Source of the DNA: Candidatus Sumerlaeota bacterium
GTDB taxonomy: Bacteria; Sumerlaeota; Sumerlaeia; SLMS01; JAHLLQ01
DNA length: 64,000 nt
Assembly: GCA_030156535.1 (NCBI GenBank)
Contig: JASGMJ010000006.1
Coordinates: 62,001 to 126,000, forward strand
Direction of reading: 5' to 3'
In this document: positions 11,910 through 47,906 of the stretch, in pieces
How the letters are laid out: each line of letters opens with the position of its first letter
Position numbering within the stretch: the stretch's first letter is position 1
Made by a program: the position numbers and the translations under genes
Notes under the pieces: generated by a model
What the model saw: only the letters and a program-made list of their open reading frames with translations
The model's database searches: none
What the model was told of the DNA's origin: nothing

Positions 11910-13304
11910 ATGCCCCGTATACTGGTGATCGAAGACGACCGCGTGTTTGCCACCCGGTTGGCGCGCAATCTGGGCCTCGACGGCTTTGAGGCCGAAGTGG
12001 CCGAAGGCCCCGCCGAGGCACTGGCGCGTCTGGGGACCGAGCGCTTCGACGGCGCGGTGTGCGACATCAAGATGCCGGGGATGACGGGGCTGGAGCTGCT
12101 CGAGCGCGTGCGCGAGGGTCAGGAGCCCGGCGTGGACCCCGAACTGCCGTTCGTCATGCTGACGTCGGTCAACTCGGTCGAGACCGCCGTGGAGGCCATG
12201 CGCCTGGGAGCGAGCGACTACCTGACGAAAGAGGCGGGGCGCCAGGAGATCGTCGTGCGGCTGCGCAAGGCGCTGGCCGAGCACGCCATGAGCGAGGAGA
12301 ACCGCCGCCTGCGCGAGACCGTCGCGCGCGTCGATGAGTTCGGCGAACTGATCGGCGTCTCGGAGGGAATGCGCCAGATCAAGCAGGACATCGGCGAAGT
12401 CGCCTCGACGAACGCGACGGTGATGCTGCTGGGCGAAACGGGGGTCGGCAAGGAACTCGTGGCGCGCGCGATCCACCGTGCTTCCCGCCGCTCCGGGGCC
12501 TTCGTGGATCTGAACGGCGCAATGCTCCCCGACGACACGATGCTGCAAAGCGAGTTGTTCGGCCACGAACGCGGCTCGTTCACCGATGCGAAGTCGCTGA
12601 AGAAGGGGAAGCTGGAACTGGCCGACGGCGGGACGTTGTTTATTGACGAGGTGGGCGAGATTTCCCGCGAGGTGCAGGCCAAGCTGCTGCGCGTGCTCGA
12701 AACGATGACGTTCACGCGCGTGGGCGGAACACGCGAAATCACCGTGGACGTGCGTATTGTCGTGGCGACAAACCGCGACTTGTTGGCCGAAGTGGAAGCG
12801 GGGCGCTTTCGAGACGACTTGTACTACCGCCTCAACGTCTTCCCGATCGAGATTCCGCCGCTGCGCGAACGCCGCGACGACATCGTGCCGCTCGTGCGTT
12901 TCTTCCTCGCGCGCACGGCCGAGCGCTACGGCCGCCCGAACCCCGAGCCCCAGCCCGAGGCGCTCGAAGAATTGCGCGCCTGCCACTGGCCCGGCAACAT
13001 CCGCGAGCTCCGCAACATCTGCGAGCGCCTGGTGATCCGAGCGCGCGGCGGCAGCGTTCTGACGGCCGCCGACGTCCGTGCCTGCGGCCTCGGCCCCGCG
13101 AGCGACGCGACCAAGACAATGACGATTCCCGACAGCGGCATCCAGCTCGATGAAGTGGAAAAGGCCCTGGTACTCGAAGCGCTGCGCAAGTCCGACTGGA
13201 ACCAGACGGAAGCCGCGCGCCTGCTGGGCATCTCCGTCGACCGCATCAACAACCGGGTGAAGAAGTACGGCTTCACCCACCCCTCCTGGCGCGTGAACAA
13301 GTAG
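11910..13304 (+). CDS. Orphan NtrC-family response regulator with altered GAFTGA loop
   Basis: 464 residues. An N-terminal receiver domain has the acidic pair EDD at 8-10, phospho-acceptor D52 (AVCDIKMPG), T85 and K107. An AAA+ domain follows with Walker A GETGVGKE at 175-182, Walker [13 protein letters not shown] and the arginine-finger region. A C-terminal Fis-type helix-turn-helix ([24 protein letters not shown]) ends the protein. Sigma54 activators contact the polymerase through a GAFTGA loop; here residues 222-227 read GSFTDA, which keeps F and T but replaces the second glycine by aspartate. This may weaken or change sigma54 activation. No histidine kinase is adjacent, so the partner is unknown. 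The receiver has an insert ([11 protein letters not shown]) before strand 4. Confidence 0.92.
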
Positions 13305-13476: not shown

Positions 13477-16400
13477 ATGCGCATGAATCATTTTGCTTGT
13501 CTGATGGGAATGGCGACTCTGGCCATCGTGCCAGCCGCCTTCGCCGACGACGCCCCCCACGCCGCCAACATGGCGGAAATGCCGGAGGAGTCCGCCGCCC
13601 CAAGCGCCGACGCCGCCGAACGCACCCAACTCGAAGCCAAAGGACTCCTCTTTCCCCTGAAGAACGCGGAAAAGAGCGCCGCCCCCAATCTCAAGGAGGG
13701 CGGAATCGTCTTTGGGTACGCGCAAAGCTACGGGTCATCCGGCTCCCACACCGACTTCTACCGCTGGGAGGCACTCTCCCATGTGGCCTCGACTTTCGTT
13801 TCCTTCTCCAACGACGGCACGATCAGCGCCGCGAACGAGAACACGTGGATCAACCGCGATTCCAACCTGAAGGCGGGAGGCGCCGCAGAGGCCGCCGGCG
13901 TGAAGGTCATCCTGACAATCCTCAACTCGGGGTTTGACGTGGATGTCATCAACGACGTGATGGACGACTCGGGCAACGGCTCGGCGGCAAAGCGCCAAAC
14001 CCTCGTCGATGAAATCGTCACGCTGCTCAAGAACGACGACTACAACCACGGCGTGACGTTCGACTTCGAGCCCTTCTCCTGGTCCTCCGGCGCCACAACG
14101 GGCATGGTCGACTTCTTCAGCCGCCTGCGCACCTCCCTCGATGCCGAGGGACTGACCAGCCACGAGATCTCGATCTACAGCGACCCCACCCCAGGCACCA
14201 ACCAGTGGGCCAACCCGGGCATCTCGCCGTACCTCGACTACATGCTCTACAGCGGCTACGACTATGCCAGCGGCCTGACGCCCCACGCGATCACCGATCA
14301 CAACAGCACCATCGGCAACATGGACTTCTACTTCGAGCGCGGCCTCGAACCGGAGAAGTTTGTCTATGTGATCTCGTCCTACTCACGGCGGTGGGCCAAC
14401 ACGACCGCCTACAATTCCGCGGGAACAAGTTCGTCTTCCATGGGCTTCACCGACGCTCTCTACGACGTGACGCTGAATCCCACGAATGGCGGCCCGCACA
14501 CCGAGAACTACGTCACGGGCGACGAGGTGAGCTGGTACACGTACAACAGCAGTGGCACGGACTACACCGTGACGTTCGATTCGCCGCGCGCGCTGACGCA
14601 CAAGGTGGGGAGTTCGCTCTCCTATCCCGGCTCGGGCGACTACCAGGGACGCAAGATGGCCGGCGTCGGCTTCTGGTCGCTGATGTGGATGAACGAAACG
14701 ACGTCGTACGATCCCATCGCCTCCGCCAGCGCGAACAAGACGCGCACGTACCCGCAAATTTATCAGCTCTGCCAGGAGATTCTCGCTCCCGCCGGACAGG
14801 AAGACTTCGTTGCCGTGGGCTTCGAGGGACTGAACTTCCGCTGGCGCGATCCGAACGAAGGGCCCGACGACTCGGGCGATTCGGACAACAACTCCGTGCG
14901 CAACATCGTCACCGCCCCCGCAGGCGCGGGACGTCCAGCCAGCACCAACAACGCCATGCAGCTCAGCTTCGACATGGAGTCCGGCGGCAAACTCTTCTTC
15001 CGGCACGAGTTGCTGGCCAGCAACACGGCCACCTCCGTCATGGACACCAACGCCGTCGCCGCCCAGTTCGACAGCACCACCGAACTGGAGGCGTACATCC
15101 ACACGTCCTTGGCCTACGCCAACGCGACCGTTCGCATGGTCGTGATGGATGCCAACCGCGAGCTGGAAATGTCGCCCGCGTTCTCGCTCAATGCAACGGG
15201 GTGGCGGACGATCACCTGGGATCTAACCAACCCGGCGACGGCTTTCGCCTATAACACGAGCGAGCCCGCTTTCCTCGATGGCGATGGCGCGATCGATTCG
15301 GCCAACGATGGCTCGCGCGACCTCGCCTTCGTCGGCTTCCTGCTCGAAAACTCTTCCTCGGTGAACGGCTCGGTGATCTTCGACGAAGTCACCTACCGCC
15401 ACGTCAACGCAGGCGGACTGGACTATAAGATCAACGAAGTGCGCTACGACTCTTCGACCGGTGAGTACGTCGAAATCTACGGGCCTGCCGGTTCGTTGCC
15501 CGCGGGCTTCCAGCTGCGCGCCATCGACGGTGAATCAGGCACGATCACCACGTTCAACGTCAGTGGCACGGTGCCCAACGACGGCGGCGGCTTTGGCTAC
15601 TTCGTCGTCGGCGACTCCAACGTTCCGAACGTCGATTTCAGCACGGGCTTCTCCACGGGCGTCGATGACCTGCCCGACGGCGATCCTTCCGCCATCCAGC
15701 TCATCAACACCACCAACACCGGTGTGTACGATTCGTTTGTGTACGAAGCCTTTGCGGGTCTGGATGAACTCGTCTCGCAGGAGATGCTCGGCGTGGCGAA
15801 CGAAGGCTTCCCCTGGTTCGGGCGCTCGGCCAACGGCACCGACCCGGCAGGCACCAAGCACGCCGCCGGCCGCTATCCCGACGGCACCGACACGAACATC
15901 AACAACGCGGACTTCTCGCTGATGAAGGCCACCCCTGGCGCCCCCAATGGCACGGGGCTCACGGCTTCCTCGATCACGACGTGGGACTTCTCCTCCACGC
16001 CCGCACATGCCTTCTCCACGTTCCAGAGCATCGTAACGACAGCCTCGGGTGTGGGCGCGTCGCCGAGCGGCGGCAATGTGCTGCGCTGCGTCGACACAGC
16101 AGGGGGCGGAGTGCTCAACTACTTCGGCGATGCCGGCCTCGGCAGCGACGGCAATGGCTACCAGGTGGCGGGCGAAATCTTCCTGCCTGCGTCCGGCGCC
16201 CCGGCACAGGCGGTTGCCGTCGGCATCTGCGGCGGACAGGGCTCCACCTTCTTCAGCAGCTTCCGCGATTCGAGCAGCTACGAGAACGGCTACTGGCTGA
16301 TTTACGAAAACAACAGCAGCGCCGATCTCGACGATGGCCTCGCCAGCCATCCCGGCGTCGTGCATTTCGTCATGGCCAGCCACGACAATCAGGACGCCGC

Positions 16401-16689
16401 GCCCGTCGTCTCGCTCGGCAGCCTCAACGTCTCCGGGCTCTCTGGTGGCTGGACGGACTTCGACATCTCCATCGACCCGGTCGGCAACGCCCTCGTCGCC
16501 ACCGTCGGCGGCAACACGATCTACTCGGGCACGATCCCGTCGGGCGGACGCACCAGCGGCCCTGTCATGATCGGCTTCCGTGAATTCGACAGCACCGTCA
16601 GCAGCGTCGAAGGGACCTGGATCGACAACCTGCGCGTCGGCCCCGTCGGCACGGTTCCCGTCGAAGTGGACGCCTGGGTGGTTGACTGA
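13477..16689 (+). CDS. Secreted GH18-like glycoside hydrolase with lamin-tail-like and lectin-like regions
   Basis: 1070 residues. A Sec signal peptide (MRMNHFACLMGMATLAIVPAAFA|DD) leads into a GH18-like TIM barrel with YAQSYG, ILTILNSG and GVTFDFEPF. E199 is the putative catalytic acid and D197 its partner, while the first two aspartates of DxxDxDxE are replaced by H and T. GH18 enzymes hydrolyse chitin or related beta-1,4 glycans, but some members only bind. Residues about 645-830 (KINEVRYDSSTGEYVEIYGP, GGFGYFVVGDSN, NNADFSLMKATPGAPNG) look like a lamin-tail domain, and the last 230 residues resemble a jelly-roll lectin module. The start at 13477 is preferred over 13468 because AGGAG at 13463-13467 is then nine bases away. 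A terminator follows. Confidence 0.78.
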   Translation: MRMNHFACLMGMATLAIVPAAFADDAPHAANMAEMPEESAAPSADAAERTQLEAKGLLFPLKNAEKSAAPNLKEGGIVFGYAQSYGSSGSHTDFYRWEALSHVASTFVSFSNDGTISAANENTWINRDSNLKAGGAAEAAGVKVILTILNSGFDVDVINDVMDDSGNGSAAKRQTLVDEIVTLLKNDDYNHGVTFDFEPFSWSSGATTGMVDFFSRLRTSLDAEGLTSHEISIYSDPTPGTNQWANPGISPYLDYMLYSGYDYASGLTPHAITDHNSTIGNMDFYFERGLEPEKFVYVISSYSRRWANTTAYNSAGTSSSSMGFTDALYDVTLNPTNGGPHTENYVTGDEVSWYTYNSSGTDYTVTFDSPRALTHKVGSSLSYPGSGDYQGRKMAGVGFWSLMWMNETTSYDPIASASANKTRTYPQIYQLCQEILAPAGQEDFVAVGFEGLNFRWRDPNEGPDDSGDSDNNSVRNIVTAPAGAGRPASTNNAMQLSFDMESGGKLFFRHELLASNTATSVMDTNAVAAQFDSTTELEAYIHTSLAYANATVRMVVMDANRELEMSPAFSLNATGWRTITWDLTNPATAFAYNTSEPAFLDGDGAIDSANDGSRDLAFVGFLLENSSSVNGSVIFDEVTYRHVNAGGLDYKINEVRYDSSTGEYVEIYGPAGSLPAGFQLRAIDGESGTITTFNVSGTVPNDGGGFGYFVVGDSNVPNVDFSTGFSTGVDDLPDGDPSAIQLINTTNTGVYDSFVYEAFAGLDELVSQEMLGVANEGFPWFGRSANGTDPAGTKHAAGRYPDGTDTNINNADFSLMKATPGAPNGTGLTASSITTWDFSSTPAHAFSTFQSIVTTASGVGASPSGGNVLRCVDTAGGGVLNYFGDAGLGSDGNGYQVAGEIFLPASGAPAQAVAVGICGGQGSTFFSSFRDSSSYENGYWLIYENNSSADLDDGLASHPGVVHFVMASHDNQDAAPVVSLGSLNVSGLSGGWTDFDISIDPVGNALVATVGGNTIYSGTIPSGGRTSGPVMIGFREFDSTVSSVEGTWIDNLRVGPVGTVPVEVDAWVVD

Positions 16690-22864: not shown

Positions 22865-24709
22865 GTGACTCCCAGACGTTCCCTTGCCGGGTGCAAATCC
22901 GGCGGCCTTGAGGTCCTGTACACGATCTCGAACATCATCAACACCACCCAGGACCGGGCGAAGGTGTTGAAGGCGATCATGCGGGAAGTCGTCAAGCTGA
23001 CCCGGGCGACTTCGGGGAGCATCGCGATGCTGAATCCTCATCGCGGAATCCTGGCAATCGAGACGGCCATCAACATTCCCGCAAAATCCTGGAAAGGGCT
23101 CAAGCTCCAACTCGGAGTCGGCGTCACTGGCTGGGCTGCGTACAAGGGAGAGACCGTGCGCGTCGATGACGTTTTTCGCGACCCGCACTACGTGGCCATC
23201 AAACAGACGATTCGCTCGGAGCTGGCGGTGCCGATGTTTCTCCATCGCCAGGTGATCGGGGTCATCAACGTGGACTCCACGCGGCGCGGCGCCTTCACGG
23301 AAGACGACGCGCGCCTGCTGCAGGCCGTTGCCGAGCAGGCCGCCAAGGTGATCGAGACGGCGCGCCTCTACGAGGAGCAAAAGCGCCATAATCGGCAGAT
23401 GGAGGCGCTGTTCGAGGTGGGACGCCAGTTGTCCTCGCCGGCGCCCGTGGACGCGGTCTTGCAGACCGTGGTGCGCGAAGGACGCCTGCTGCTGAAGGCC
23501 GACGTGTGCGCCTTCGTGGAGTACCGCGAGGACAAGGACGAGTTGGCGATCCGCGCGCAGGAGGGGGCGGCGCCATCGTGGCTGGCGGCCGATCCGATTA
23601 CGTGGCGCTCGAGCATCCTGGGGCCGGTGATCACGCACCGCGCGCCGCTGTTCCTCTCCGAGCTTCACGAGGGCCACGCCTTCTGGGGGGGCGTGCTGGC
23701 CGGAGGCGGCGACTTCCGCAGCCTGGTCGCCGTGCCCGTCGTGTTCCAGAAAACGTTGCTGGGCGTTCTGGTGGTGCTGACGTCAGAGCCGCGCTCCATC
23801 ACCGAACATGAAACGCGATTGCTGACCCTGCTGGCCAGCCAAACGGCCGCGGCGCTCGAGAACGCGCGCCGCCTCGAACGCATTCATGCAACGGAGGACG
23901 ACCTGCACCGCGTCGAGCGCTTCTCGCTGATGGGCTCGCTCGCCGCCGAAATCGCACACGAGATCCGCAATCCGGTCACGATCATCAACCTGATCATGGA
24001 CTCGCTGATCGAAACGTACCGCGACAACGAGACGACGTTTCACGACTTGTCACTGGTGCGCGAGAAAGTCTCGCGGATCGACCACATCGTCGAGCAGACG
24101 CTGGCGATGGCGCGCAATCCGAAGGCGCGCAGCTTCGAGCGCCAGCCAATCGGCCCCGTCGTGGCCGATGTGCTGCTCTTCCTCAACTACAAGGTCGCAC
24201 GCCGCGGTATCGAAGTTGAAACGCTCCTGCCCGCCGATCTGCCGGAACTGGAAATGGACCGCGGCCAGATGCAGCAGGTCTTCCTCAATCTTGCCATGAA
24301 CGCCATCGAAGCGATGCCCGACGGCGGCCGTCTCTCCATCACGGCCGAACGGATCCACGACGTGGACCTGGGCGATTGTGTCGCCGTCTCGGTGCGCGAC
24401 GAAGGCCCGGGCATCGCCCGCGAAAACGTGCAGGCACTCTTCGAACCGTTCTACACCACGCGCGCCGAAGGCACCGGCCTCGGGCTTTTCATCACCCGCA
24501 AGCTCGTCGCCAATCACAACGGCGACGTGCGCGTGCAAAGTTTTCAGGGCAAGGGCTCGACGTTCACCGTGCTTCTCCCCGTGAAGCCACCGGAAGAGAA
24601 GCAAACGAGGAACGGAGAAGAGTCCGCGCTCGATTCCCTGATCGAAGGCAAGGCCATCCACTCCCAAGAGGTTCTTCCCCGTGCCCCAGCAAACAATTCT
24701 CGTCGTTGA
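22865..24709 (+). CDS. Soluble sensor histidine kinase with two GAF domains
   Basis: 614 residues from a GTG start with no clear ribosome-binding site. GAF 1 is at about 15-165 (GVGVTGWAAYKGETVRVDD, LAVPMFLHRQVIGVINVDS) and GAF 2 at about 185-335. The HisKA domain carries the phospho-accepting histidine in AAEIAHEIRNP. The HATPase domain has N box NLAMNAIEA, G1 DEGPGIA, F box FEPFYTT and G2 GTGLGLFI, all intact. There is no membrane segment, so it should sense a cytosolic signal. It overlaps the next gene by 29 bases; the pair forms a two-component system. The last about 30 residues after the kinase core overlap the start of the regulator gene and may be non-essential. Confidence 0.95.
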   Translation: MTPRRSLAGCKSGGLEVLYTISNIINTTQDRAKVLKAIMREVVKLTRATSGSIAMLNPHRGILAIETAINIPAKSWKGLKLQLGVGVTGWAAYKGETVRVDDVFRDPHYVAIKQTIRSELAVPMFLHRQVIGVINVDSTRRGAFTEDDARLLQAVAEQAAKVIETARLYEEQKRHNRQMEALFEVGRQLSSPAPVDAVLQTVVREGRLLLKADVCAFVEYREDKDELAIRAQEGAAPSWLAADPITWRSSILGPVITHRAPLFLSELHEGHAFWGGVLAGGGDFRSLVAVPVVFQKTLLGVLVVLTSEPRSITEHETRLLTLLASQTAAALENARRLERIHATEDDLHRVERFSLMGSLAAEIAHEIRNPVTIINLIMDSLIETYRDNETTFHDLSLVREKVSRIDHIVEQTLAMARNPKARSFERQPIGPVVADVLLFLNYKVARRGIEVETLLPADLPELEMDRGQMQQVFLNLAMNAIEAMPDGGRLSITAERIHDVDLGDCVAVSVRDEGPGIARENVQALFEPFYTTRAEGTGLGLFITRKLVANHNGDVRVQSFQGKGSTFTVLLPVKPPEEKQTRNGEESALDSLIEGKAIHSQEVLPRAPANNSRR

Positions 24710-26240
24710 CGACGAGCCCGATTTCATCACGGGATTCCGACGCGTCCTTGCGCGCGACGATCTCGAAATCCTTTCCGCCCAGAGCGGCGAGGAAGCGCTC
24801 GCCCTCGTGCGCCAGCGCCGCCCCGACGTCATCTTCATGGACCTGCGCATGCCCGGCCTCGACGGCCTCGCAACGCTCAAGCGCCTGCGCGAGATGGACT
24901 CGCGCCTCATCATCATCCTCATGACGGCCTACACGACGACCAGCACCATCATCGAGGCAATGAAGCACGGCGCCTTCGAGTTCGTCGCCAAGCCCTTCTC
25001 CGGCACCAAGCTGCGCGAGATCGCCGCCGAGGCACTCAAAGTCGCCAACGACATGCGCACCGTCGTCTCCTACCACCCCAGCGCCAACGAAAGCGAAAGC
25101 ACTGAACAAATCATCGGCAGCAGCGACGCCATGCAAAGCGTCTACAAGGCCATCGGCCAGGTGGCCGCCAGCAACGCCACGATCCTGATCACCGGCGAGA
25201 GCGGCACCGGCAAGGAACTCGTCGCCCGCGCCATCTACCACCACAGCGACCGTTCCACCAAACCGTTCATCGCCGTCAACTGCGCGGCCATCCACGACAA
25301 CCTGTTGGAGAGCGAACTCTTCGGCCACGAGAAGGGAGCCTTCACGGGCGCCGCGGCGCGCAAGCTCGGCAAGTTCGAGGTCGCCCGCAACGGCACGATC
25401 TTCCTCGACGAAATCGGCGACATGGCACTCTCCACGCAGACGAAAATCCTGCGCGTTCTCCAGGACGGTTCGTTCCAGCGCGTCGGCGGCACCGAAACCC
25501 TGCAGGCCGACATCCGCGTCATCGCCGCCACCAACCGCGATCTCCCCCGCATGATCAAGGAAGGCACCTTCCGCAGCGACCTGTACTACCGCCTCAACGT
25601 CGTGCACATTGAAATGCCGCCGCTGAGTCAGCGCGCCGAGGACATCCCGTTGCTCGTCGACTACTTTCTGCGCCGCCTGCAACGCGAAACGCGCCGCCAG
25701 TGCCCCTCCGTGTCCTCCGCCGCGATGAAGGTGCTGCAAGCCTACCCGTGGCCGGGCAACGTGCGCGAACTCGAGAACGTGATCCGCAACCTCGTGCTCA
25801 CCGTGAAATCCGACACGGTGCTGCCGAGCGATCTGCGCCTGCGCGGCGAACTCGCCGAGACGGCTCCGCCACGCGGCGAGTTCAGCGCCGCCGCCCCCTC
25901 CACACAGGCCTTTGCTTCCCGGACACCGGAGACTTCAAACGACGACGCGGACCTCATTGGCGGCGACGCGGCACTCGACAACTGCGTCTTCGACTCCGGG
26001 GTCTTTCGAGACATTGAGACCGCCGTGGAACCGTTGTTCGACCAACTCGTTGACGCCCGCGACCGCGGCCACAAGTTCAGCGCCTTCGACGTCATGGAAC
26101 GCGCCATGATCCTGCACGCCCTCAACAAAGTGAAAGGCAACCAGGTGCAGGCCGCGCGCCTGCTCGGCATCACGCGCAGCACCCTGCGCAAACGCATCGC
26201 CCGTTACGGGCTGAAAATCGACACGAGGGTCAGAGGGTAG
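24681..26240 (+). CDS. Sigma54-dependent NtrC-family response regulator, partner of the GAF kinase
   Basis: 519 residues from a GTG start that lies inside the kinase gene, giving a 29-base overlap. Receiver: acidic pair DDE at 10-12, phospho-acceptor D54 (IFMDLRMPG), T82 and K104. AAA+ domain: Walker A GESGTGKE at 172-179, an intact GAFTGA loop at 219-224 and Walker B GTIFLDEIGDM. The C-terminal Fis-type helix-turn-helix is QVQAARLLGITRSTLRKRIARYG. A low-complexity spacer of about 90 residues, including QAFASRTPETSNDD, separates AAA+ from DNA-binding domains and is longer than usual. It should activate sigma54 promoters on phosphorylation by the kinase encoded upstream; the targets are unknown. 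Confidence 0.95.
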   Translation: MPQQTILVVDDEPDFITGFRRVLARDDLEILSAQSGEEALALVRQRRPDVIFMDLRMPGLDGLATLKRLREMDSRLIIILMTAYTTTSTIIEAMKHGAFEFVAKPFSGTKLREIAAEALKVANDMRTVVSYHPSANESESTEQIIGSSDAMQSVYKAIGQVAASNATILITGESGTGKELVARAIYHHSDRSTKPFIAVNCAAIHDNLLESELFGHEKGAFTGAAARKLGKFEVARNGTIFLDEIGDMALSTQTKILRVLQDGSFQRVGGTETLQADIRVIAATNRDLPRMIKEGTFRSDLYYRLNVVHIEMPPLSQRAEDIPLLVDYFLRRLQRETRRQCPSVSSAAMKVLQAYPWPGNVRELENVIRNLVLTVKSDTVLPSDLRLRGELAETAPPRGEFSAAAPSTQAFASRTPETSNDDADLIGGDAALDNCVFDSGVFRDIETAVEPLFDQLVDARDRGHKFSAFDVMERAMILHALNKVKGNQVQAARLLGITRSTLRKRIARYGLKIDTRVRG

Positions 26241-37866: not shown

Positions 37867-39417
37867 ATGTCCCTCTTCACGCGCACGGCCTGTTTCTTTG
37901 CCCTGGCCGCCATGTTAGCTTCATGCCGAACCACCGGCGCCCCAGCATCCGCTCCTCCCCCACCTCCCCCCTCTGTTCCGGTGGCATCACCGGTGCAGCC
38001 ACAAAAGCCCCCTGCCGAGCTTCTCCAGGCAGTTGACGCCTTCTTCGAGGACGAGCGCTTTGCCAACGCGTTCTGGGGCGCCAAGATCAAGTCCCTCGAC
38101 ACCGGCGAGGTCTGGTACGAGCGCAACTCCGACAAACTCTTCATGCCCGCGTCGAATGAGAAAATCCCCACGACCGCCGCGGCTCTCGTGACGCTGGGGC
38201 CGGACTGGCAGTTCACCACGCACTTCACCACGAACGGCGAGATCCGCAACGGCGTGCTCGAAGGCGACCTGATTGTCTTCGGCAATGGCGACCCGACTCT
38301 GTATTCACGCTTCTACGACGACCCGCGCGATGTCTTCCGCCTCGTTGCCCAACGCTTCCACGATCTCGGGATCACGCGCATCACGGGCGACATCATTGGC
38401 GACGACAACGCCTTCGACGACGAGCACATTGGCTACGGCTGGCCGCTCGACGGACTGCCCTCGTGGTACTCCGCCGAGTTCGGCGCCCTGCAGATCAATG
38501 AGGGCTACGTGGACCTCACCGTTCGCCCCCCCGCCGATGCGAACGGCACCGTCACCATCGAGCCGAATCTCCCCAGCGACTACTATACGATCGACAACCG
38601 CGTCGTGGTCCGCCCCGGCCGCAACCGCATCTCGTCCGACCGCGCCTTTGGAACGAACAATCTCATCGTGCGCGGCTCCGTTGCGCCCGGTTCCAACCCC
38701 CAGGAAGTTTCTCCCACGATCACCAACCCCACCCTCTTCTACGTCACGGTGCTCGCGGAAGTTCTCCGCGACGAACGCATCGACATCGGCGGCAAGCCGA
38801 TGGATTGCGACGACATTGCCGCCTGGAATCAGAAGCCCGAGGATTTCACGTCCCTCTACGTTCACAAGTCTCCGCCCCTTTCGGAGATCATCAAGGGACT
38901 GATGAAGCGCAGCCAGAACCTGTATGCGGAAACGATGGCACGCGTGCTGGGCTGGGAGGTCCACGGCAACGGCAGCTTCCGCAACGGCCGGCGCGTGGTG
39001 AGCGACGTCCTCAAAGGCTTTGGCGTCGAGCCGGGAACCTACCGCTATATGGACGGCTCGGGCTTGTCGCGCTACAACTTCATCAGCCCGGACATTCTGG
39101 TCAAGATTCTCGAGGGAATGCACGAACACGAATACTGGCCCGAGTGGCGCGAGTCGATGCCCATCGCCGGAGTGGACGGCACGCTGGCGCGCCGGATGCG
39201 CGGCACCCCGGCCGAGGGGAACGTGCGCGCGAAGACGGGAACGATCTCCAACGTGCGTGGCCTCTCGGGCTATGTGACGACGGCGGACGGCGAGGAACTC
39301 GTTTTCTCGTTCCTCGTCAACGCGCACATCGTTTCTTCCGCCGCCACCGAGGACGTCACCGACGGCGTGCTTGCACTGCTGGCCGGCTATGATTCGGGCG
39401 CGGCCCCGGGCAACTGA
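37867..39417 (+). CDS. dacB: D-alanyl-D-alanine carboxypeptidase, S13 (PBP4) lipoprotein
   Basis: 516 residues. Starts MSLFTRTACFFALAAMLASC, a lipoprotein signal with C20 as the lipidated cysteine, so the enzyme is membrane-anchored outside the cytoplasm, unlike soluble E. coli PBP4. SxxK is SNEK at 96-99, SxN is the SQN of KRSQNLYAE, and KTG is in VRAKTGTIS; all three active-site motifs are intact. It trims peptidoglycan stem peptides and may act as an endopeptidase. A proline-rich linker follows the lipobox. The frame is open 41 codons upstream, but the lipobox decides the start. It converges on the histidine kinase gene with a 31-base overlap. The kinase-like gene is divergent. Confidence 0.93.
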   Translation: MSLFTRTACFFALAAMLASCRTTGAPASAPPPPPPSVPVASPVQPQKPPAELLQAVDAFFEDERFANAFWGAKIKSLDTGEVWYERNSDKLFMPASNEKIPTTAAALVTLGPDWQFTTHFTTNGEIRNGVLEGDLIVFGNGDPTLYSRFYDDPRDVFRLVAQRFHDLGITRITGDIIGDDNAFDDEHIGYGWPLDGLPSWYSAEFGALQINEGYVDLTVRPPADANGTVTIEPNLPSDYYTIDNRVVVRPGRNRISSDRAFGTNNLIVRGSVAPGSNPQEVSPTITNPTLFYVTVLAEVLRDERIDIGGKPMDCDDIAAWNQKPEDFTSLYVHKSPPLSEIIKGLMKRSQNLYAETMARVLGWEVHGNGSFRNGRRVVSDVLKGFGVEPGTYRYMDGSGLSRYNFISPDILVKILEGMHEHEYWPEWRESMPIAGVDGTLARRMRGTPAEGNVRAKTGTISNVRGLSGYVTTADGEELVFSFLVNAHIVSSAATEDVTDGVLALLAGYDSGAAPGN

Positions 39418-40646
39418 ACGACGAAGCGCGTGCCGCGCGGCACGTTGTCCTCGATCCGGATCGAGCCACCGAGGTCTGAGAGAATCTGTGTGCAGATGTA
39501 GAGGCCGAGACCGGAGCCTTCGGTTTCGGCCTTTGTCGTTGCGAACGGATCGAAGATGCGCGCGCGAATCTCCGGCGCGATCCCCGGCCCCGTGTCCGCG
39601 ACGACGATCTCCGTCCCTGATTTCACTGCACGCACGTCAACGGCAAGTTCCCCGCGCCCTTCCATTGCCTGGTAGGCGTTCAGAAAAAGGTTCGAGAAGA
39701 GCTGCACCAGCCGCCACGGCGGCGCGAAAACCAGCGGCAACGAACCGTCGCGCGCCGCGTTGACGGAAACGGCAACGTCGCGCTGCTCGTACTTCACCAA
39801 CGCCAGCGAGCGTTCGATGGATTCGGCCACGTCGCAAAACTCGTCCGCGCTTCCCTCCGCACGAACGAACTGTTCGAAGCCCGATTCCCTGAGCATCGTG
39901 AGGAACAACTCGGTCTGCTCCTTCATGGCAGCGATGGCCACGCGCGGGGCATCGCCAAGCTCGCCGCCCGCCAGCAGATCGTCGGCCTCGTGCTTGATGT
40001 TGAGCACCGGCTTCTTGATGTCGTGAAAAATGTTGGCGGACAGCTGGCCCGCGAGAGCGAGGCGCTCCAGACGAATGACCTCCGCGCGGCGCTGTTCGAG
40101 TTCGGAGACCGTGCGGCTGAGTTCGATGTCCTTGCCGCGCTGGCGAAAAACGAGCAGGCCGAGGCAAACCAGCAGGAAAACACCGAAGGCGGCGATCGTG
40201 CGATCAACCGCCTGGCGGTTGGAAGGCTCCAGCTTTACGTAGAGCCAGCCCGACGGGTTCTCCTCGGGACCGACGGTCAGCCGGCGCCACGCGGCAGTCT
40301 CCTCGCGCCAGGCCGGGTGCTCCAGTTCGTACCAGAAGGGATGCACGAGGACTTCGCGTCCACTGTGCGTGTTCTTGCCGACGAGCAGGGAAGCCACGAG
40401 GTCGCTCGCCTCAAAGCTGCCCGCCGTCGATTCCACAAGCGTGAAGCGAATCGCGTCGTTCTCCGGCCGCAGCAGCACGTTGCTGCGCTCGAACACGCGC
40501 ACGGCATTCTCCAGCGTCGCCTGCTCCTCGGCAACCAGCCGCCCGCGCAGCCAAAACAGCGTTCCCAGCGCCGCCACCGAAAGCAGCAACGCCAGCACCA
40601 GCGGCCAGCGGGCGGGACCCCGACGGGACGAGGAAGCCGGATTCAT
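39387..40646 (-). CDS. Membrane sensor histidine kinase, no adjacent regulator
   Basis: 419 residues. TM1 at about 14-33, an extracytoplasmic loop of about 110 residues with no known sensor fold, and TM2 near 150-167. HisKA-like histidine is in NIFHDIKKPVLNIKH. HATPase motifs are N box NLFLNAYQAMEG, G1 DTGPGIAPEI, F box FDPFATT and G2 GSGLGLYIC. The ATG overlaps the stop of the upstream PhnD-like gene as ATGA (40643-40646), so the kinase is produced together with the binding protein, as in binding-protein-dependent sensor systems. No response regulator lies beside it. The C-terminus overlaps dacB by 31 bases on the opposite strand. The histidine box differs from the usual H-E/D-(L)RNP in having KKP. 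Confidence 0.93.
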   Translation of the reverse strand: MNPASSSRRGPARWPLVLALLLSVAALGTLFWLRGRLVAEEQATLENAVRVFERSNVLLRPENDAIRFTLVESTAGSFEASDLVASLLVGKNTHSGREVLVHPFWYELEHPAWREETAAWRRLTVGPEENPSGWLYVKLEPSNRQAVDRTIAAFGVFLLVCLGLLVFRQRGKDIELSRTVSELEQRRAEVIRLERLALAGQLSANIFHDIKKPVLNIKHEADDLLAGGELGDAPRVAIAAMKEQTELFLTMLRESGFEQFVRAEGSADEFCDVAESIERSLALVKYEQRDVAVSVNAARDGSLPLVFAPPWRLVQLFSNLFLNAYQAMEGRGELAVDVRAVKSGTEIVVADTGPGIAPEIRARIFDPFATTKAETEGSGLGLYICTQILSDLGGSIRIEDNVPRGTRFVVQLPGAAPES

Positions 40647-41629
40647 GGCCGACGAATCTCCCGTCCCATCAATTCGTTGAAGCGTCCCAGCAGCGCGGGC
40701 GCGTCGGTGTAATCGCTGTTCGTGGCCGACTGCAGCGAAATCGGCCCAAACCCGGTCTCGATGGAAAAGTCGCGCAACGCCCGCTTGAGCTCGCGGCCCA
40801 GCGCGGAATCAAGCGGCGCAAACTCCGGGCGCACGACCACCGGATCCGTCGCCACCGGCCGCGACAACACCACCACACGGTGCATCCGCTCCTGCGCCCC
40901 CGAAGCGGCCAGCGTCTCCTCAATGGCTCCCTGCTCGCAGACGCCCACTTCCACCAGGCCGGAAACGACGGCCTTCACGACCTCGGCATTCGACTCCATC
41001 CACAAAAAATCCGAGGCCTGGGGGGTGACGCCATAGCGCTCCGCCAACGCGGTCAGCGGAGCCACGAATTCCGCCATGCCTTCCGACGTGACGACCGCCA
41101 TGCGCGTGCGCCGCAGGTAGGCGGCGAACGCCTCGCCGTCGAGGGGATCCTGGGCAAAGAACGACGAGCGCGGAGAGAGAAAGACCGCGCCGCGTTGGAG
41201 CACCATGTTGCCGCGCGTGGCCGTGGCATCGCGCTCGCGCCGCGTCTGCAGAATGACCTCGTAGCGCGCGGCGGGATTCTGCTCGGCCCACACGCGCAGG
41301 GGAACGAAGGCGAGATCGAACTCGCGGGCATTGAGCCGCCGCAGCATGTCGCGCCCGCCGTCGGTCTCATAGAGCCCGAAGCCATCAAAACCCGCCGCGC
41401 GGCACTCGGCCATCAGCACCTCGTCGGCCAGCAGGCGCGAGCGCAGCGCCTCCATCTGCCCACGCGTGAAGCCCGCTTCGCCCTCGGGCCGCAGATAGCC
41501 CACGCGAAAGAGCCGGGGCAGCGGTCCGCTCATCGTCGGCGTCGTGGGGGCATCCTGCGCGGCAAGGGGGAGGCAGGCAAGCAGCAGCGCGATTCCGAGC
41601 AGCAGGTGGCGAATGGGCAAACGCGGCAT
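40643..41629 (-). CDS. PhnD/SsuA-like periplasmic substrate-binding protein
   Basis: 328 residues with a signal peptide (MPRLPIRHLLLGIALLLACLPLAAQ). The mature protein has the two-lobed layout of PhnD-type binding proteins: FRVGYLRPEGE (first strand), REFDLAFVPLRVWAEQNP, FFAQDPLDGEAFAAYLRR, and AEVVKAVVSGLVEVGVCEQGAIEE. No conserved ligand residues could be named, so the ligand is unknown; phosphonate, phosphate-like anions or other small molecules are possible. It is encoded between ybbR and a histidine kinase whose start it overlaps, so it probably feeds the kinase sensor and is not part of an ABC transporter: no permease or ATPase gene is present. The start at 41629 has GGGGGAG five bases upstream. 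Confidence 0.85.
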   Translation of the reverse strand: MPRLPIRHLLLGIALLLACLPLAAQDAPTTPTMSGPLPRLFRVGYLRPEGEAGFTRGQMEALRSRLLADEVLMAECRAAGFDGFGLYETDGGRDMLRRLNAREFDLAFVPLRVWAEQNPAARYEVILQTRRERDATATRGNMVLQRGAVFLSPRSSFFAQDPLDGEAFAAYLRRTRMAVVTSEGMAEFVAPLTALAERYGVTPQASDFLWMESNAEVVKAVVSGLVEVGVCEQGAIEETLAASGAQERMHRVVVLSRPVATDPVVVRPEFAPLDSALGRELKRALRDFSIETGFGPISLQSATNSDYTDAPALLGRFNELMGREIRRP

Positions 41630-41649
41630 GGCGGCTCCCCCGTTTCGCC

Positions 41650-42927
41650 TCACGGCGACGTCGGCGTGTCGGCGGGCGAGACGGCGGCGGGGCGGAGAGT
41701 GGGCTCGGGGATCGACACGGGCGTACGCCGCGGCGCGGGCGAGTTCGGGGACGGGGACGGAGTCGGCTGGGGCGTGCGGGCGGGAACGATGACCGGCGGC
41801 GTGAGAAGCCGCGTCGTCGAGCGGTCGTCGCGCCGCACCACGGGCAGCGGCGTCGGCTCGGGCTCCAACGACGGCGTGGGCGTTTCAATCGGTGTCTCCG
41901 GTTCCTTGGCGTAGAAGCGCACGCGCACGAAACGTGGCTCGATGGTCGCCCGCAGGCGGTCGCGCAACTCGGGGTCGATGCCGTCAAAGGAGGCGTCGAT
42001 CAGCGTTTCGAAACTCTCTCCCGCCGTCTCCTCGTCCAGAAATTCGTTGGGCCGCGGAGTCAGCAGAATCGTTGCCGAGGACATCCGGTCAAGTTGGCTG
42101 ACGGGGCCGCTGACGGTGATGCTGGCAAATTCGGGCGACAACGTCGCGCCGATGCGCCGCTTGATCGGCTTGTAGCGGATGGGCACCTTGGGGAACGAAC
42201 GCTCCACCTCAATCTCGGGGATCGGCACGAACACCGTCACTGTGCTCGTGGGATTGCTGGGCATCGGGTAGACGCCGTCGCTGGTGTTATAGAGCAGCCC
42301 GGCCACGCGGCGCAGCGACGTGCGGGCTCCGGCAACGCTGATCTCCTCGGTGGGAATCTCGATGGTCTCGCGCTGGGCAAGTTCGTAGTGAAACAGATCG
42401 ACGGCCACGTCGATTTCGGAGGGCTCGGCACGGATCGCGTCGGTCTCGATGCGGTAGCCTTCCGCAGGTGGCTCGGGTCCCAGGCGCGGCACCACGGTGG
42501 CGCGGGCCACGCGCAGACGGGCCCGGAACGTCACCTCCGGCTCGGAGCGGTATTCCACGAAGCTCAGCTTGTCCGGCGCCTTCAGGTTCTCCCGCGTGAC
42601 ACGCACCACGTACTCGGTGTAGCGCTCGGTGCTCCCCACGCGCGTCCCCATGTCCGCCAGGTCGATGCGCAGACGGAACTCCGCCGACCCCACCATGCGC
42701 TCCTCGCCCTTGGGGAAGCTGAAGGAGACGGGGATCTGGGTCGGAGTGAACGGCTCGCTTGGGTCGAGTTCGACGTAGGGGGGCAGGTTGCGGTAGTCGA
42801 TGGGAACGAGAATCGTCTGCGTCAGGATCTCCTGTTGGCGGACGATGGCCCAGACCAGGAAAGCGAGCAGAAGCGAGAAGAGCACGAGCACGAGATCGTT
42901 GACGGGTTGCTTAGCCTGTTTCGCCAC
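41650..42927 (-). CDS. YbbR-domain protein (CdaR-like), regulator of CdaA
   Basis: 425 residues from a GTG at 42927, chosen because AGGAGGAGGAG sits just upstream of it; the frame opens eight codons earlier at a TTG. An N-terminal membrane anchor (about residues 11-29, VLVLFSLLLAFLVWAIV) is followed by three to four YbbR repeats with the strand pattern of the family (for example VSGPVSQLDRMSSATI). In Bacillus, CdaR controls the c-di-AMP cyclase CdaA from the outer face of the membrane. The last 90 residues are Pro/Thr-rich (TPTPSLEPEPTPLP) and unlike CdaR; they may span the wall or be low-complexity tail. It overlaps the end of cdaA by 17 bases and lies 20 bases before the binding-protein gene. 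Confidence 0.88.
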   Translation of the reverse strand: MAKQAKQPVNDLVLVLFSLLLAFLVWAIVRQQEILTQTILVPIDYRNLPPYVELDPSEPFTPTQIPVSFSFPKGEERMVGSAEFRLRIDLADMGTRVGSTERYTEYVVRVTRENLKAPDKLSFVEYRSEPEVTFRARLRVARATVVPRLGPEPPAEGYRIETDAIRAEPSEIDVAVDLFHYELAQRETIEIPTEEISVAGARTSLRRVAGLLYNTSDGVYPMPSNPTSTVTVFVPIPEIEVERSFPKVPIRYKPIKRRIGATLSPEFASITVSGPVSQLDRMSSATILLTPRPNEFLDEETAGESFETLIDASFDGIDPELRDRLRATIEPRFVRVRFYAKEPETPIETPTPSLEPEPTPLPVVRRDDRSTTRLLTPPVIVPARTPQPTPSPSPNSPAPRRTPVSIPEPTLRPAAVSPADTPTSP

Positions 42928-43729
42928 GGCTCTCCTCCTCCTCGATTTCAAAGAGATCGCGCAGCTTGACGCGCAACGATTCCGGCGTTTCGGGGCGCTC
43001 GATCAGGCCATCGTGCGCAAGCGAGATCGTGCCGGTCTCCTCGGAGACCACCACGACCACGGCGTCGGTTTCCTCTGTCAGGCCAATGGCAGCGCGGTGG
43101 CGCGTCCCCATGTCCTTGGGGAGTTCCTGGGTCGAGAGCGGCAGGATGCACCCCGCCGCCGCGATGCGGTTGTTGCGTACAATCACAGCCCCGTCGTGCA
43201 GCGGCGTGGAGAGCGCGAAAATCGTCCGCAGGGTTTCCACGGAAACGAGCGCATCCATGAGGGTTCCCGTTTCGTGGTACGGGCGCAGCGACGCGCGGCG
43301 CTCCAGACAGATCAGGGCACCGACTCTCTTTTCCGCCAGCCGGGCCGCGGCCTTGATGACTTCCTCAATCGGCGTGGTTTCCTGCTTGAACAGGGCGCGG
43401 AAGATCGGCAACCGGCCGTATTCGGTCAGCCCCTTCTTTATTTCATTCTGAAAGACGACCAGAAAAAGGACCACGATCACGATCCACGCCCGGCCCAGCA
43501 GCGCCCGCATGGCGCTCAGTTCCCCCAGAATCGTCACCAAATAGAAGAACAACGTCGCTCCGAACACGATCATCAGGCCGCGCAAGGCAACCTGGCTGCG
43601 CGACTGCCGGAACATGTTGAGCAGGATGTAGAACACCAGCGCCAACATCAGGATGTCCACGGCATCGCGGATTCCCATGTTGGCCGTCAGGGCAACCAGA
43701 TCGGAGAAGAAGGAACGGACTTGCTTCAT
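42911..43729 (-). CDS. cdaA: Diadenylate cyclase (c-di-AMP synthase), CdaA type
   Basis: 272 residues, the usual size. Makes c-di-AMP from two ATP. Three membrane helices (about 24-42, 48-68 and 80-98) precede a DAC domain. The DGA motif (LHDGAVIV) and the RHR segment (GTRHRAAIG) are intact, so it should be active. c-di-AMP controls potassium and osmolyte uptake and cell-wall homeostasis. The YbbR/CdaR gene follows with overlap; glmM, the third member of the common operon, is not present. Instead a PhnD-like binding protein and histidine kinase follow, an arrangement discussed in the findings. The start has GGAG about 5 bases upstream. Confidence 0.96.
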   Translation of the reverse strand: MKQVRSFFSDLVALTANMGIRDAVDILMLALVFYILLNMFRQSRSQVALRGLMIVFGATLFFYLVTILGELSAMRALLGRAWIVIVVLFLVVFQNEIKKGLTEYGRLPIFRALFKQETTPIEEVIKAAARLAEKRVGALICLERRASLRPYHETGTLMDALVSVETLRTIFALSTPLHDGAVIVRNNRIAAAGCILPLSTQELPKDMGTRHRAAIGLTEETDAVVVVVSEETGTISLAHDGLIERPETPESLRVKLRDLFEIEEEESRGETG

Positions 43730-43991: not shown

Positions 43992-46900
43992 ATGACATCG
44001 CGTGACGCACCTCCGTTGATTCTGATCGTCCTGATTGCCGCCACGGTGGCGATCTTCGGCGTCTTTTTAACCCGGCATTCAAGTACGCCTTCCGGGACCC
44101 CCGGAGTGCGCGGCTATACCTCTGATCGCATCGAGCGTCAGGATCCCGCCGCCATGACGCTGCGCCGCAAGGCGACTCCGGCACCCGAGCCCACCGCCGC
44201 ACCGGATCCGGAACCGACTCCGGAGCCCACGCCCGAAGCCGCTCCCGCCGAACTCGAACCGATCGAGAAGGCCATGAAGGAGCCGCCCGGCACCCTGTCC
44301 GGGTGGGTAAGCGGCGAGAACGGCATCCCCATTGCAGGCGTTGAGGTTCGCCTCGAATTCACGAATCTCGTCAAGGACGGCAAGCCAGGCCCCGAACTCA
44401 AGGTGCTCACCGGCGAGACGGGCCGCTTTGAGTTCCCTGCCGTCCCTCCCGGCACTTGGGACGTCATTGCCGAGCACCCCTCCTACGCCGTCGCCAAGAC
44501 CCCCGGCCTTGAGGTCCAATCGGAGAGGGAAACGGAAGGCGTCGAACTCGTCATGGAGCCGGCCCTGACCGTGAAGGGAAAGGCGCGCACCACCACGGGG
44601 CTGAATCTGGAAGGGGTGCAGCTCGTCCTGGCCCGCCAGATCGTCAGCGTCGCCCGCGCCGACGGCGAAGTCGTCGCCACCGAGATTCCCTATCGAGAGA
44701 CGCGCTCGAATGCGAAAGGCGAGTGGCAGATCGATCGGGCCGGGCCGGGCAGTCACATCCTGACAGCCTCGCTGCGGGGATTCGCCACCGAGCGCCTGGA
44801 ATTCGATCTGGCCCGCGAAGGCGCCAACGAGCTCACCGTCCTGCTCTCCCCCGGCGCCAACATCGGAGGGATCGTGCGCTCGGCCAAGGGCCTGCCGGTT
44901 CCCAGCACCACGATCACGCTGACCGATCCCTCAGACTCAAAGTTCAAGGAGGAAGTCACCACCAAGCCCGACGGCTCCTTCATTATCGGTGGCCTGCGGG
45001 CCGAGCGCACGTACAGCCTGACGGCCAAGGCGGACAACTTCGCCCCCGCAGGCCCAATCGCCATTCCCGCAGGACGCCTGGAAAACCTCATCATTCTCGA
45101 GTCCGGCGGAGCAATCACCGGGATGGTGACAAGCAGCGAAACCGGCCAGCCGCTTCAGGGCATCATCCTGGCCCTCGAATCCACCGTGTCGGGCATCCCC
45201 GTCGATCAGACGACCTCTTCGCGCTCCGACGGCACCTACGAGTTCCCCCTCCTCCCCTCGGGAACGTACAATATCCGGGTCAGGAACGACCGCCTGACGT
45301 GCGAGCCGCGTCTGGGCGTCAAAGTCAAAATCCCCAAAGTCACCGAGGGCATTAACTTCCAACTCTATCCGGGCAAGAGTATCACGGGAGTCGTGGCGGA
45401 TGCCGCCACGGGCGAACGCATCGGCGAAGCCACCGTGAACTTGACGAGCAGTGTCGGCCCCCAGTTCCTGTCCTCGAGCAGTCAGAAGACGACGACGGAC
45501 CCCGGCGGCTCGTTCACCGTGGAGAACCTCCCCTACGGCCTCTACTCGCTCGATGCAACGGCCGACGGCTACCTGCGCTACCCCGGGCCGGGAGGCACCG
45601 CCGAGGTGCGCCTGCTCCCCGACGAAAAACCCGAACCCGTCGAATTGTTTCTCGCCCGCGGAGGCACGGTTTCCGGCTGCGTACTCGACGCCTCCGGAGC
45701 CCCGGTGGGCGGCGCCTTTGTCAACCTGTACAACACCCCCGGCGCTCCCGTGCGCATCAATACCAGCAAGTTGCAGGCAACCGCCGACGATTCCGGCAAT
45801 TTCGAGATCGATGGAATTCCCCTGGACACGGACGTTTACCTGACCGCAAGCGCCACGCCACTGGGAGGAAAGATCCCCCTGGATGCGCAGGGCACAGCCG
45901 ACTCGGCCAGCACGGCGCTCTACGGACTCGCCAAGGGCAAGAGCGACCCCATCATTCTGACGCAGTTCCTTTCCACCGCCAATGTCACAATCCGCCTCAC
46001 CATCGGCGGGCCATTGACAGTGAACGTGATGGACGAGAATGGCTCGGCCCTCGTCGACGTTGACGTGTCCATTTCCCACGACGAGTTTAGCGGCGACGGG
46101 ACCCCGGCTGCCTGGAAGGGAAAAACGACGAGTTCGGGCAAGTACACATTCGCCAACGTCCCCGCCGGCGTGGGAACGGCCTACGCTTCCAAGAGCGGCT
46201 ATATTGGCTCCTCCACGCGTTTCGCGGTCCAGGATGGGTCGCCCTCCGAAGTCACTCTGACGCTTGAGAGTGGTCTCTCCATCGAAGGCTACGTCGTGGA
46301 CGACGCGGGGATTCCGTTTCAGGAAGGCTATGTCGATGCGCGCGGAGAATCCGGCGCGCGCGGCAGCGGCCGGGGCAGTATCGACGCGCGTGGGCACTTC
46401 ACCATCGACGGCCTGGGCGAGGGCAACTTCAAGCTCATCGCCTACGCCACCCGCCAGACGCCCACGGGCAAGCATACGGTGCGCCGGGAAGTCACCGGCG
46501 TCGACGTGCGCACCACCGAGGAAGTCATCCAGGTTCCGATGAACGGACGCGTCGACGGCGTCGTCGTCGATCAGGAAACAGACGATCCGATCTCCGGAGC
46601 CTCGATCACCATCTCGGGCACTTACGAGGTCCGTTCGGGCTCCAAGGCCAGCTTCAAGTCCAGCACCAGCGCCAAGGAACCCCCGGGAGAGTTCAGCTTC
46701 CGCAGTCTTCCCCCGGGGGACTACCGCCTCAGCATCAGCGCCTCGAACTACCTATCCACCACCCTGGACGGCATAACTGTCGATTCCCCCGGTACGTTCT
46801 CGGTGGGGCGCATCGCCTTGGCACAGGGAGCCGCGTTGACCGCAACGGTTGTGGCGGAGGACACGGAGAAGCCAATCAGCGGGGCAACGGTCGTGCTCGA

Positions 46901-47906
46901 CCCCAGCGGCAGAAGCGGCAAGACCAACAGCAAGGGGGTCGTGCGCATTGCTTCGCTCCCCGCCGATGTGTATACTCTTCAGGTCTCGCATTCCCAGTAT
47001 CTGTCGAAGACCGTGAAACTGGTCCAGGTGCCCGAGGAGGGCGACGTGGACGCAGGCACGATCAAGCTCGACCCTGGCGGGCGGCTCGTTGGGCGCGTCA
47101 CGGACGACGTGAGCAAGCCCGTCAAAGGCGCTCTCGTGACGGTGCGCTACGTCGGCGAAGAGTGGAAACGCACCGCGCGCACCAACGACGGCGGACGCGT
47201 CACCATCGAGGGACTCAAGCCCGGCACCGTTCTCATCACCGTCACCGCTGCCTTTACCCGCGGAAACGTGACCAAGAGCATCGAGAAGACCATCTCGTCG
47301 TCGGCAGAGACCACCTTCGACATCCAGCTCGTCGGCAACCTGGTTCTCGAAGGAGGGATTTTCTCCAACGGACGCGGCGATCCGATCAACTGCTCGGTCG
47401 ATCTCTATCCTTTGGAGAGCGACGGCAGCCCCGTCATCAACGGCCGCATCCGCGCCACCGTCACGGGCTCCAACTACCGCGCCACCGACCTGATCGAGGG
47501 CGACTACCTGATCCTCGTTTCCGCGTCGATCAACGGGCGTGTCTACCAGTGGGACGACCGCATCACGCTGACGTATCCCGGCAAGACTCTGCCACTGATC
47601 CCGCCGCGCGCACGCATCGCCGGGCGGGTGCTCAACGCCGACATGACCTACGCCCTGCCTGACATCAACATCCGCCTGCGCAGTCTTTCGGCTCCGCAAA
47701 GCGGCGTCGCCGCGCTCCAGGCCTTCTGGGAATACACCACCCAGTCCGACGAGCTCGGCTACTACGAATTCGAGTGCCTGCGCGCGGGCACCTACGAAAT
47801 CGTGGCCACCGAGGTCGGCTCCTCCGACCCCCTCGTCCTCGACATCCTGCAGCTCAATGATTCCAACACCACCCTGAGCTACGACCTGATCGAGCAGAGA
47901 GACTAG
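43992..47906 (+). CDS. Membrane-anchored protein with about a dozen carboxypeptidase-regulatory-like repeats
   Basis: 1304 residues. An N-terminal hydrophobic segment (about 8-26, LILIVLIAATVAIFGVF) acts as a signal anchor, followed by a basic loop, then a Pro/Glu/Ala linker (about 55-90). From residue about 100 on there are repeated beta domains of 80-90 residues. Each begins with a strand like GTLSGWVSGENGIPIAGVEVRL or ISGMV.. and contains ...GRFEFPAVPPGTWDVI... or ...YEFPLLPSGTYNIRV..., the hallmark of carboxypeptidase regulatory-like (CarboxypepD_reg) or Cna_B-like domains. At least ten are visible. Such proteins form extended stalks at the cell surface. No enzymatic domain was found. It is alone, followed by a strong hairpin. 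No clear ribosome-binding site. Confidence 0.82.
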   Translation: MTSRDAPPLILIVLIAATVAIFGVFLTRHSSTPSGTPGVRGYTSDRIERQDPAAMTLRRKATPAPEPTAAPDPEPTPEPTPEAAPAELEPIEKAMKEPPGTLSGWVSGENGIPIAGVEVRLEFTNLVKDGKPGPELKVLTGETGRFEFPAVPPGTWDVIAEHPSYAVAKTPGLEVQSERETEGVELVMEPALTVKGKARTTTGLNLEGVQLVLARQIVSVARADGEVVATEIPYRETRSNAKGEWQIDRAGPGSHILTASLRGFATERLEFDLAREGANELTVLLSPGANIGGIVRSAKGLPVPSTTITLTDPSDSKFKEEVTTKPDGSFIIGGLRAERTYSLTAKADNFAPAGPIAIPAGRLENLIILESGGAITGMVTSSETGQPLQGIILALESTVSGIPVDQTTSSRSDGTYEFPLLPSGTYNIRVRNDRLTCEPRLGVKVKIPKVTEGINFQLYPGKSITGVVADAATGERIGEATVNLTSSVGPQFLSSSSQKTTTDPGGSFTVENLPYGLYSLDATADGYLRYPGPGGTAEVRLLPDEKPEPVELFLARGGTVSGCVLDASGAPVGGAFVNLYNTPGAPVRINTSKLQATADDSGNFEIDGIPLDTDVYLTASATPLGGKIPLDAQGTADSASTALYGLAKGKSDPIILTQFLSTANVTIRLTIGGPLTVNVMDENGSALVDVDVSISHDEFSGDGTPAAWKGKTTSSGKYTFANVPAGVGTAYASKSGYIGSSTRFAVQDGSPSEVTLTLESGLSIEGYVVDDAGIPFQEGYVDARGESGARGSGRGSIDARGHFTIDGLGEGNFKLIAYATRQTPTGKHTVRREVTGVDVRTTEEVIQVPMNGRVDGVVVDQETDDPISGASITISGTYEVRSGSKASFKSSTSAKEPPGEFSFRSLPPGDYRLSISASNYLSTTLDGITVDSPGTFSVGRIALAQGAALTATVVAEDTEKPISGATVVLDPSGRSGKTNSKGVVRIASLPADVYTLQVSHSQYLSKTVKLVQVPEEGDVDAGTIKLDPGGRLVGRVTDDVSKPVKGALVTVRYVGEEWKRTARTNDGGRVTIEGLKPGTVLITVTAAFTRGNVTKSIEKTISSSAETTFDIQLVGNLVLEGGIFSNGRGDPINCSVDLYPLESDGSPVINGRIRATVTGSNYRATDLIEGDYLILVSASINGRVYQWDDRITLTYPGKTLPLIPPRARIAGRVLNADMTYALPDINIRLRSLSAPQSGVAALQAFWEYTTQSDELGYYEFECLRAGTYEIVATEVGSSDPLVLDILQLNDSNTTLSYDLIEQRD

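Follow-up and report, generated by a model that had tools for sequence, protein, structure and literature searches.

In a genome of Candidatus Sumerlaeota, the genes for a membrane diadenylate cyclase and its regulator are followed on the same strand by genes encoding an exported binding protein (BP) and a sensor histidine kinase (HK). This raises the question of whether the four genes form one device by which an outside ligand is reported to the cell alongside c-di-AMP control, as was initially suggested, or whether two separate systems meet here. The window analysed, a stretch of 64,000 nucleotides, was compared with related genomes, beginning with the layout of the locus itself.

Layout of the cdaA-cdaR-BP-HK locus

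On the minus strand, an uninterrupted reading frame was confirmed for each of the four genes at the positions initially annotated. The cdaA gene (42911..43729) encodes a membrane diadenylate cyclase of 272 aa, which matches TIGR00159 over its cut-off as well as PF02457 (4e-42) and PF19293, contains both the transmembrane (TM) and DAC domains, and is the sole DAC gene of the source genome. The overlapping cdaR gene (41650..42927) encodes a YbbR-like CdaA partner with an N-terminal TM segment and a proline-rich C-terminal tail. The Pfam search returned no YbbR match for the window's CdaR itself, and its identity is assigned through homologous genes that adjoin cdaA in relatives, several of them matching YbbR (PF07949) above cut-off. 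The third gene (40643..41629) encodes a PhnD/PtxB/AioX-like exported BP of 328 aa (PF12974, 1.5e-12), and the fourth (39387..40646) encodes the HK, with two TM helices and a HATPase_c domain (3e-24). The overlaps of 17 bases between cdaA and cdaR and of 4 bases (ATGA) between BP and HK were reproduced, as was the 20-base gap between cdaR and BP. This gap is counted from the BP ATG at 41629. A GGGGGAG ribosome site lies just 5' of this start; an alternative GTG start at 41653 would give a 4-base overlap with cdaR. For HK, the ATG at 40646 was kept in preference to a later start offered by the gene caller, because the resulting overlap with BP is also seen in G001 and other genomes.

The locus resembles the Bacillota cdaA-cdaR-glmM operon in that cdaA is followed by an overlapping cdaR/YbbR gene, but the Bacillota operon carries glmM in third place, whereas the window operon lacks glmM and carries BP and HK (PMC6368335, PMC8573169). 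The reported absence of glmM from the operon holds, and the nearest glmM-family gene, scoring below cut-off, lies on contig C40. In other Sumerlaeota, pdxJ and a glycosyltransferase gene stand where the Bacillota operon has glmM. Scanning the window for promoters yielded no sigma-70-like promoters, and the terminator-like sites were scattered inside genes and were useless for setting transcript limits. Upstream of cdaA, a divergent gene (43992-47906) encodes a protein of 1304 aa with about 12 carboxypeptidase-regulatory-like repeats, and the same gene lies upstream of cdaA in G001.

The binding protein and kinase as a pair

Among 39 searchable genomes of class Sumerlaeia, BP was found as a single-copy gene in 34, a total that a profile search left unchanged. 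HK orthologues, defined by a threshold of >180 bits that separated them clearly from other kinases, were detected in 36 genomes; 34 genomes hold both genes, and none holds BP without HK. The two genes are adjacent in 23 of these 34 genomes, and the 4-base ATGA-type overlap was found in seven of the checked loci, the window's included. In G023 and G032, BP was not found, by profile search either, although HK and its response regulator (RR) are kept there. In family f6 (Sumerlaeaceae), BP and HK lie at separate places; the Sumerlaeaceae loci carry BP at L072, L074, L076, L078, L082, and L106, and HK at L073, L075, L077, L083, and L107.

Relatives of HK also occur outside the class, in Omnitrophota and Hinthialibacteria. 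At two loci that are outside Sumerlaeota or without assigned lineage (L175 and L180), a PF12974 gene scoring over the cut-off lies directly upstream of the HK relative, and at a third such locus (L172) a weak PF12974 match lies two genes upstream; no cdaA was called beside any of the three. At further Omnitrophota loci the genes upstream of HK are unrelated, and the pairing thus does not hold everywhere beyond the class. Across the loci compared, no recurring gene fit to be a permease was found beside the pair. The frequent adjacency and ATGA overlap, together with the gene order at the two non-Sumerlaeota loci and, weakly, at the third, bear out the early proposal that BP and HK are used together. 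On the evidence of sequence, BP and HK are a conserved pair of their own, old and separate from cdaA-cdaR.

The BP N-terminus is hydrophobic and signal-peptide-like. The AlphaFold prediction of its structure reached a pLDDT of 88.6, and the best PDB folds for this model were PtxB, ArrX, AioX, and PhnD, at 11-18% identity. Searching solved structures with the single BP sequence gave no matches, and a family profile was needed instead. In the profile alignment to ArrX, the place of AioX Cys106 is occupied by Pro in the window BP; a Cys one residue before this place is frequent in the BPs of other families and is Val in the window BP. From the same alignment, a Glu or Asp appears to be mostly kept at the ArrX Asp equivalent to AioX Asp210. 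Given the predicted fold and the aligned residues, an oxyanion-like ligand is plausible. The binding protein of G021 (L070:2278-4656) is a larger form of 792 aa, with PF12974 at 474-698, preceded by a long N-terminal stretch for which Pfam gave no match.

The HK has TM helices at aa 15-33 and 149-167, with an external alpha/beta domain of about 115 aa between them. An H-box with His208 (FHDIKKP) is followed by the HATPase domain; all kinase motifs are present, and the catalytic residues are invariant or nearly so in an alignment of 31 sequences. Foldseek matched the kinase core alone and gave no identification for the external domain.

A probable NtrC-type partner regulator and a proposed three-component design

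The initial annotation described an HK with no RR adjacent to it. The missing adjacency is correct, but the implication that HK lacks a partner is weakened by a gene about 26 kb from BP and HK in the same window (11910..13304, plus strand). This gene encodes an NtrC-type RR of 464 aa, consisting of a receiver, a sigma-54 AAA+ domain, and a Fis-type HTH, and it is the orthologue of a regulator that lies directly downstream of HK in five genomes of three families (G014, G022, G023, G032, and G034). BP, HK, and RR follow one another in G014 and G022, as they do in G013 up to the contig end, where RR is cut; HK and RR are adjacent in G023, G032, and G034. The window regulator and that of G014 are reciprocal best matches with 54% identity, and a search with the G014 protein gave 530 bits to the 11910-13304 gene versus 339 for the next gene. 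Orthologues of the regulator are present in 35 of the 39 class genomes, a few as fragments, and the four genomes that lack it have completeness values of 58-75%. The regulator is single-copy, with identities of 51-84% among full-length orthologues and scores below 365 bits for paralogues. An NtrC gene upstream of BP-HK in G002 was rejected as the cognate regulator; it is a paralogue (42%), and the true orthologue lies elsewhere in that genome. The pairing in the window is based on orthology because the regulator is unlinked there, and by this measure the unlinked 11910-13304 gene is the probable RR of HK.

The source genome contains rpoN. The sigma-54 contact loop reads GSFTDA in the window regulator and GAFTDA in most orthologues, as compared with GAFTGA. 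The corresponding Gly-to-Asp substitution frees NorR from repression by its regulatory domain and leaves it active (PMC2941729). The neighbours of the RR gene are not conserved and thus give no pointer to its targets, and a search of the window for sigma-54 promoters returned one match, fewer than expected by chance, so no regulon is proposed. Behind the regulator gene, and in the same orientation, 13510-16689 encodes a glycosyl hydrolase family 18 protein of 1059 aa. Elsewhere in the window (22865-26240), a gene for a 614-aa protein overlaps a gene whose 519-aa product is a receiver-type regulator belonging to the same NtrC cluster; the two are likely another two-component pair.

A PhnD-like periplasmic binding protein, an HK, and a sigma-54 regulator make up the design of AioXSR (PMC5908839, PMC7533571). 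The arsenic systems AioXSR, ArxX, and ArrX thus share with the window system a separate PhnD-like periplasmic BP, a membrane HK, and an NtrC-type sigma-54 regulator. The tandem X-S-R order of AioXSR is matched in G014 and G022, and a partner regulator is present by orthology in the window and by adjacency in the five genomes with HK and RR side by side. However, the genes are dispersed in the window system, with those of one family beside cdaA-cdaR, unlike in the arsenic systems; the window BP has 14-18% identity to the AioX and ArrX structures, and Cys106 of the AioX arsenite-binding pocket is replaced by Pro. An arsenite oxidase model retrieved from the genome, which is 94% complete, only a relative below cut-off (123 bits against 359). 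An arsenic sensor of the AioXSR kind was therefore considered and rejected, because two defining features, the pocket Cys and an arsenic oxidoreductase gene, are lacking. TtrSR and ThsSR, which are sensors of tetrathionate and thiosulfate, likewise drive an HK through a PhnD-like domain, but this domain is fused to the kinase in TtrS and ThsS, whereas the window BP is a separate exported protein encoded by its own gene (PMC5408782). No paper on such a system in Sumerlaeota was found in a literature search that lay mainly outside subscription journals.

The reading that we favour, and hold to be likely, is a dispersed BP-HK-NtrC three-component sensor with the 11910-13304 product as its regulator, the sensing half of which has been placed behind cdaA-cdaR in one family. 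The exported BP would bind a small, probably oxyanion-like ligand and, loaded (or empty), would dock on the short external domain of HK. HK would then autophosphorylate at His208 and pass the phosphate to the 11910-13304 regulator, which would activate sigma-54 promoters. The cdaA-cdaR genes would remain a separate unit that makes and controls c-di-AMP, and their join to BP-HK, which would have arisen in one family, is probably a matter of shared transcription rather than the mark of a dedicated c-di-AMP sensor. This reading draws on sequences, linkage, conservation, the predicted BP fold, the kinase and activator motifs, and the presence of rpoN. Points against it are the unlinked position of the regulator in the window, the genomes in which only HK and RR were found (G023 and G032), the separation of BP and HK in f6, and the retention of the cdaA linkage across two genera. 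Seen locally, the c-di-AMP operon appeared to hold a kinase without a partner; the comparison identifies the likely three components of a sensory system that is kept across the class, in an uncultured phylum. AioX-like sensors would then no longer be limited to arsenic, and one BP, one HK, and one regulator form a set that can be tested.

Linkage to cdaA-cdaR and competing readings

BP-HK is linked to cdaA in four of the five genomes of one family, representing two genera (G000, G001, G003, and G004). The linked locus has cdaA in place in G000, G001, and G003, while the 5.8-kb contig of G004 carries the end of cdaR, a glycosyltransferase gene, BP, HK, and a convergent carboxypeptidase gene; in both G003 and G004, the glycosyltransferase gene lies between cdaR and BP. 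G002, the remaining genome of that family, lacks the cdaA link, as do the sister family f2 and all other families examined. In the unlinked families, cdaA-cdaR mostly occurs with pdxJ and a glycosyltransferase gene, often after folP or an aminotransferase gene. Homologues free of a cdaA link had been named at the outset as a result that would count against the proposal; they occur in every other family examined, and the linkage is thus not supported as a general system.

Within the family, the linkage is better conserved than its surroundings. BP identity across the two linked genera is about 36-41%, and the only common order found between the window and the G003 stretches compared is the cdaA-cdaR-BP-HK-carboxypeptidase block; around the RR genes of the two, the RR alone is in common. 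The persistence of the linkage across two genera with a diverged BP suggests more than chance linkage, and co-transcription of BP-HK with cdaAR may matter locally, because the linkage outlasted a deep divergence in which the order of nearby genes was lost. Judged by gene order and homology, the cdaA link is old and kept within its family, yet the sensor is not defined by it.

The same observations could be read as a single c-di-AMP module, in which an external signal perceived by BP-HK would govern CdaA activity or cdaA expression, or in which the sensor and c-di-AMP output would converge on a common target, for instance envelope or osmotic state. The retained order cdaA-cdaR-(glycosyltransferase)-BP-HK, the paucity of other shared order in the flanks and around the RR, and the short gaps and overlaps, which suggest a single transcript, are in its favour. 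However, both units stand apart in G002, the sister family, and every other family examined, and G003 and G004 also retain the convergent carboxypeptidase gene that lies past HK, indicating that the linkage is not limited to the operon. The shared operon of one family is the sole evidence tying the sensor to c-di-AMP control. We regard the module as unlikely, and equally so its narrower form, in which, in the cdaA-linked family, one transcript would carry the cyclase, its regulator, and the sensor of an outside ligand, so that a periplasmic ligand would set c-di-AMP output or share its regulon. The family-specific join offers a natural experiment for asking if a signal from outside becomes coupled to c-di-AMP through a common operon.

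Control of type IV pili or type II secretion, in the manner of PilS-PilR, concerns the regulon of the three-component system and is compatible with the favoured reading. In f6, BP adjoins a PilB/PilC-like cluster in six of seven loci and HK lies near PilC-PilT in five of eight, and one study reports pili in every one of its Sumerlaeota MAGs (PMC8092238). This linkage is confined to f6, where it probably reflects two inherited events, and was seen in 1 of 29 loci elsewhere; such a role is accordingly doubtful. Very improbable is an ordinary ABC-transporter binding protein with its permease elsewhere and an incidental kinase neighbourhood: such a role would suit the PF12974 family and the transporter proteins PhnD and PtxB among the closest folds, but no permease candidate recurs beside the pair, ATGA coupling is frequent, and the pairing with one HK orthologue group is conserved in the class and beyond.
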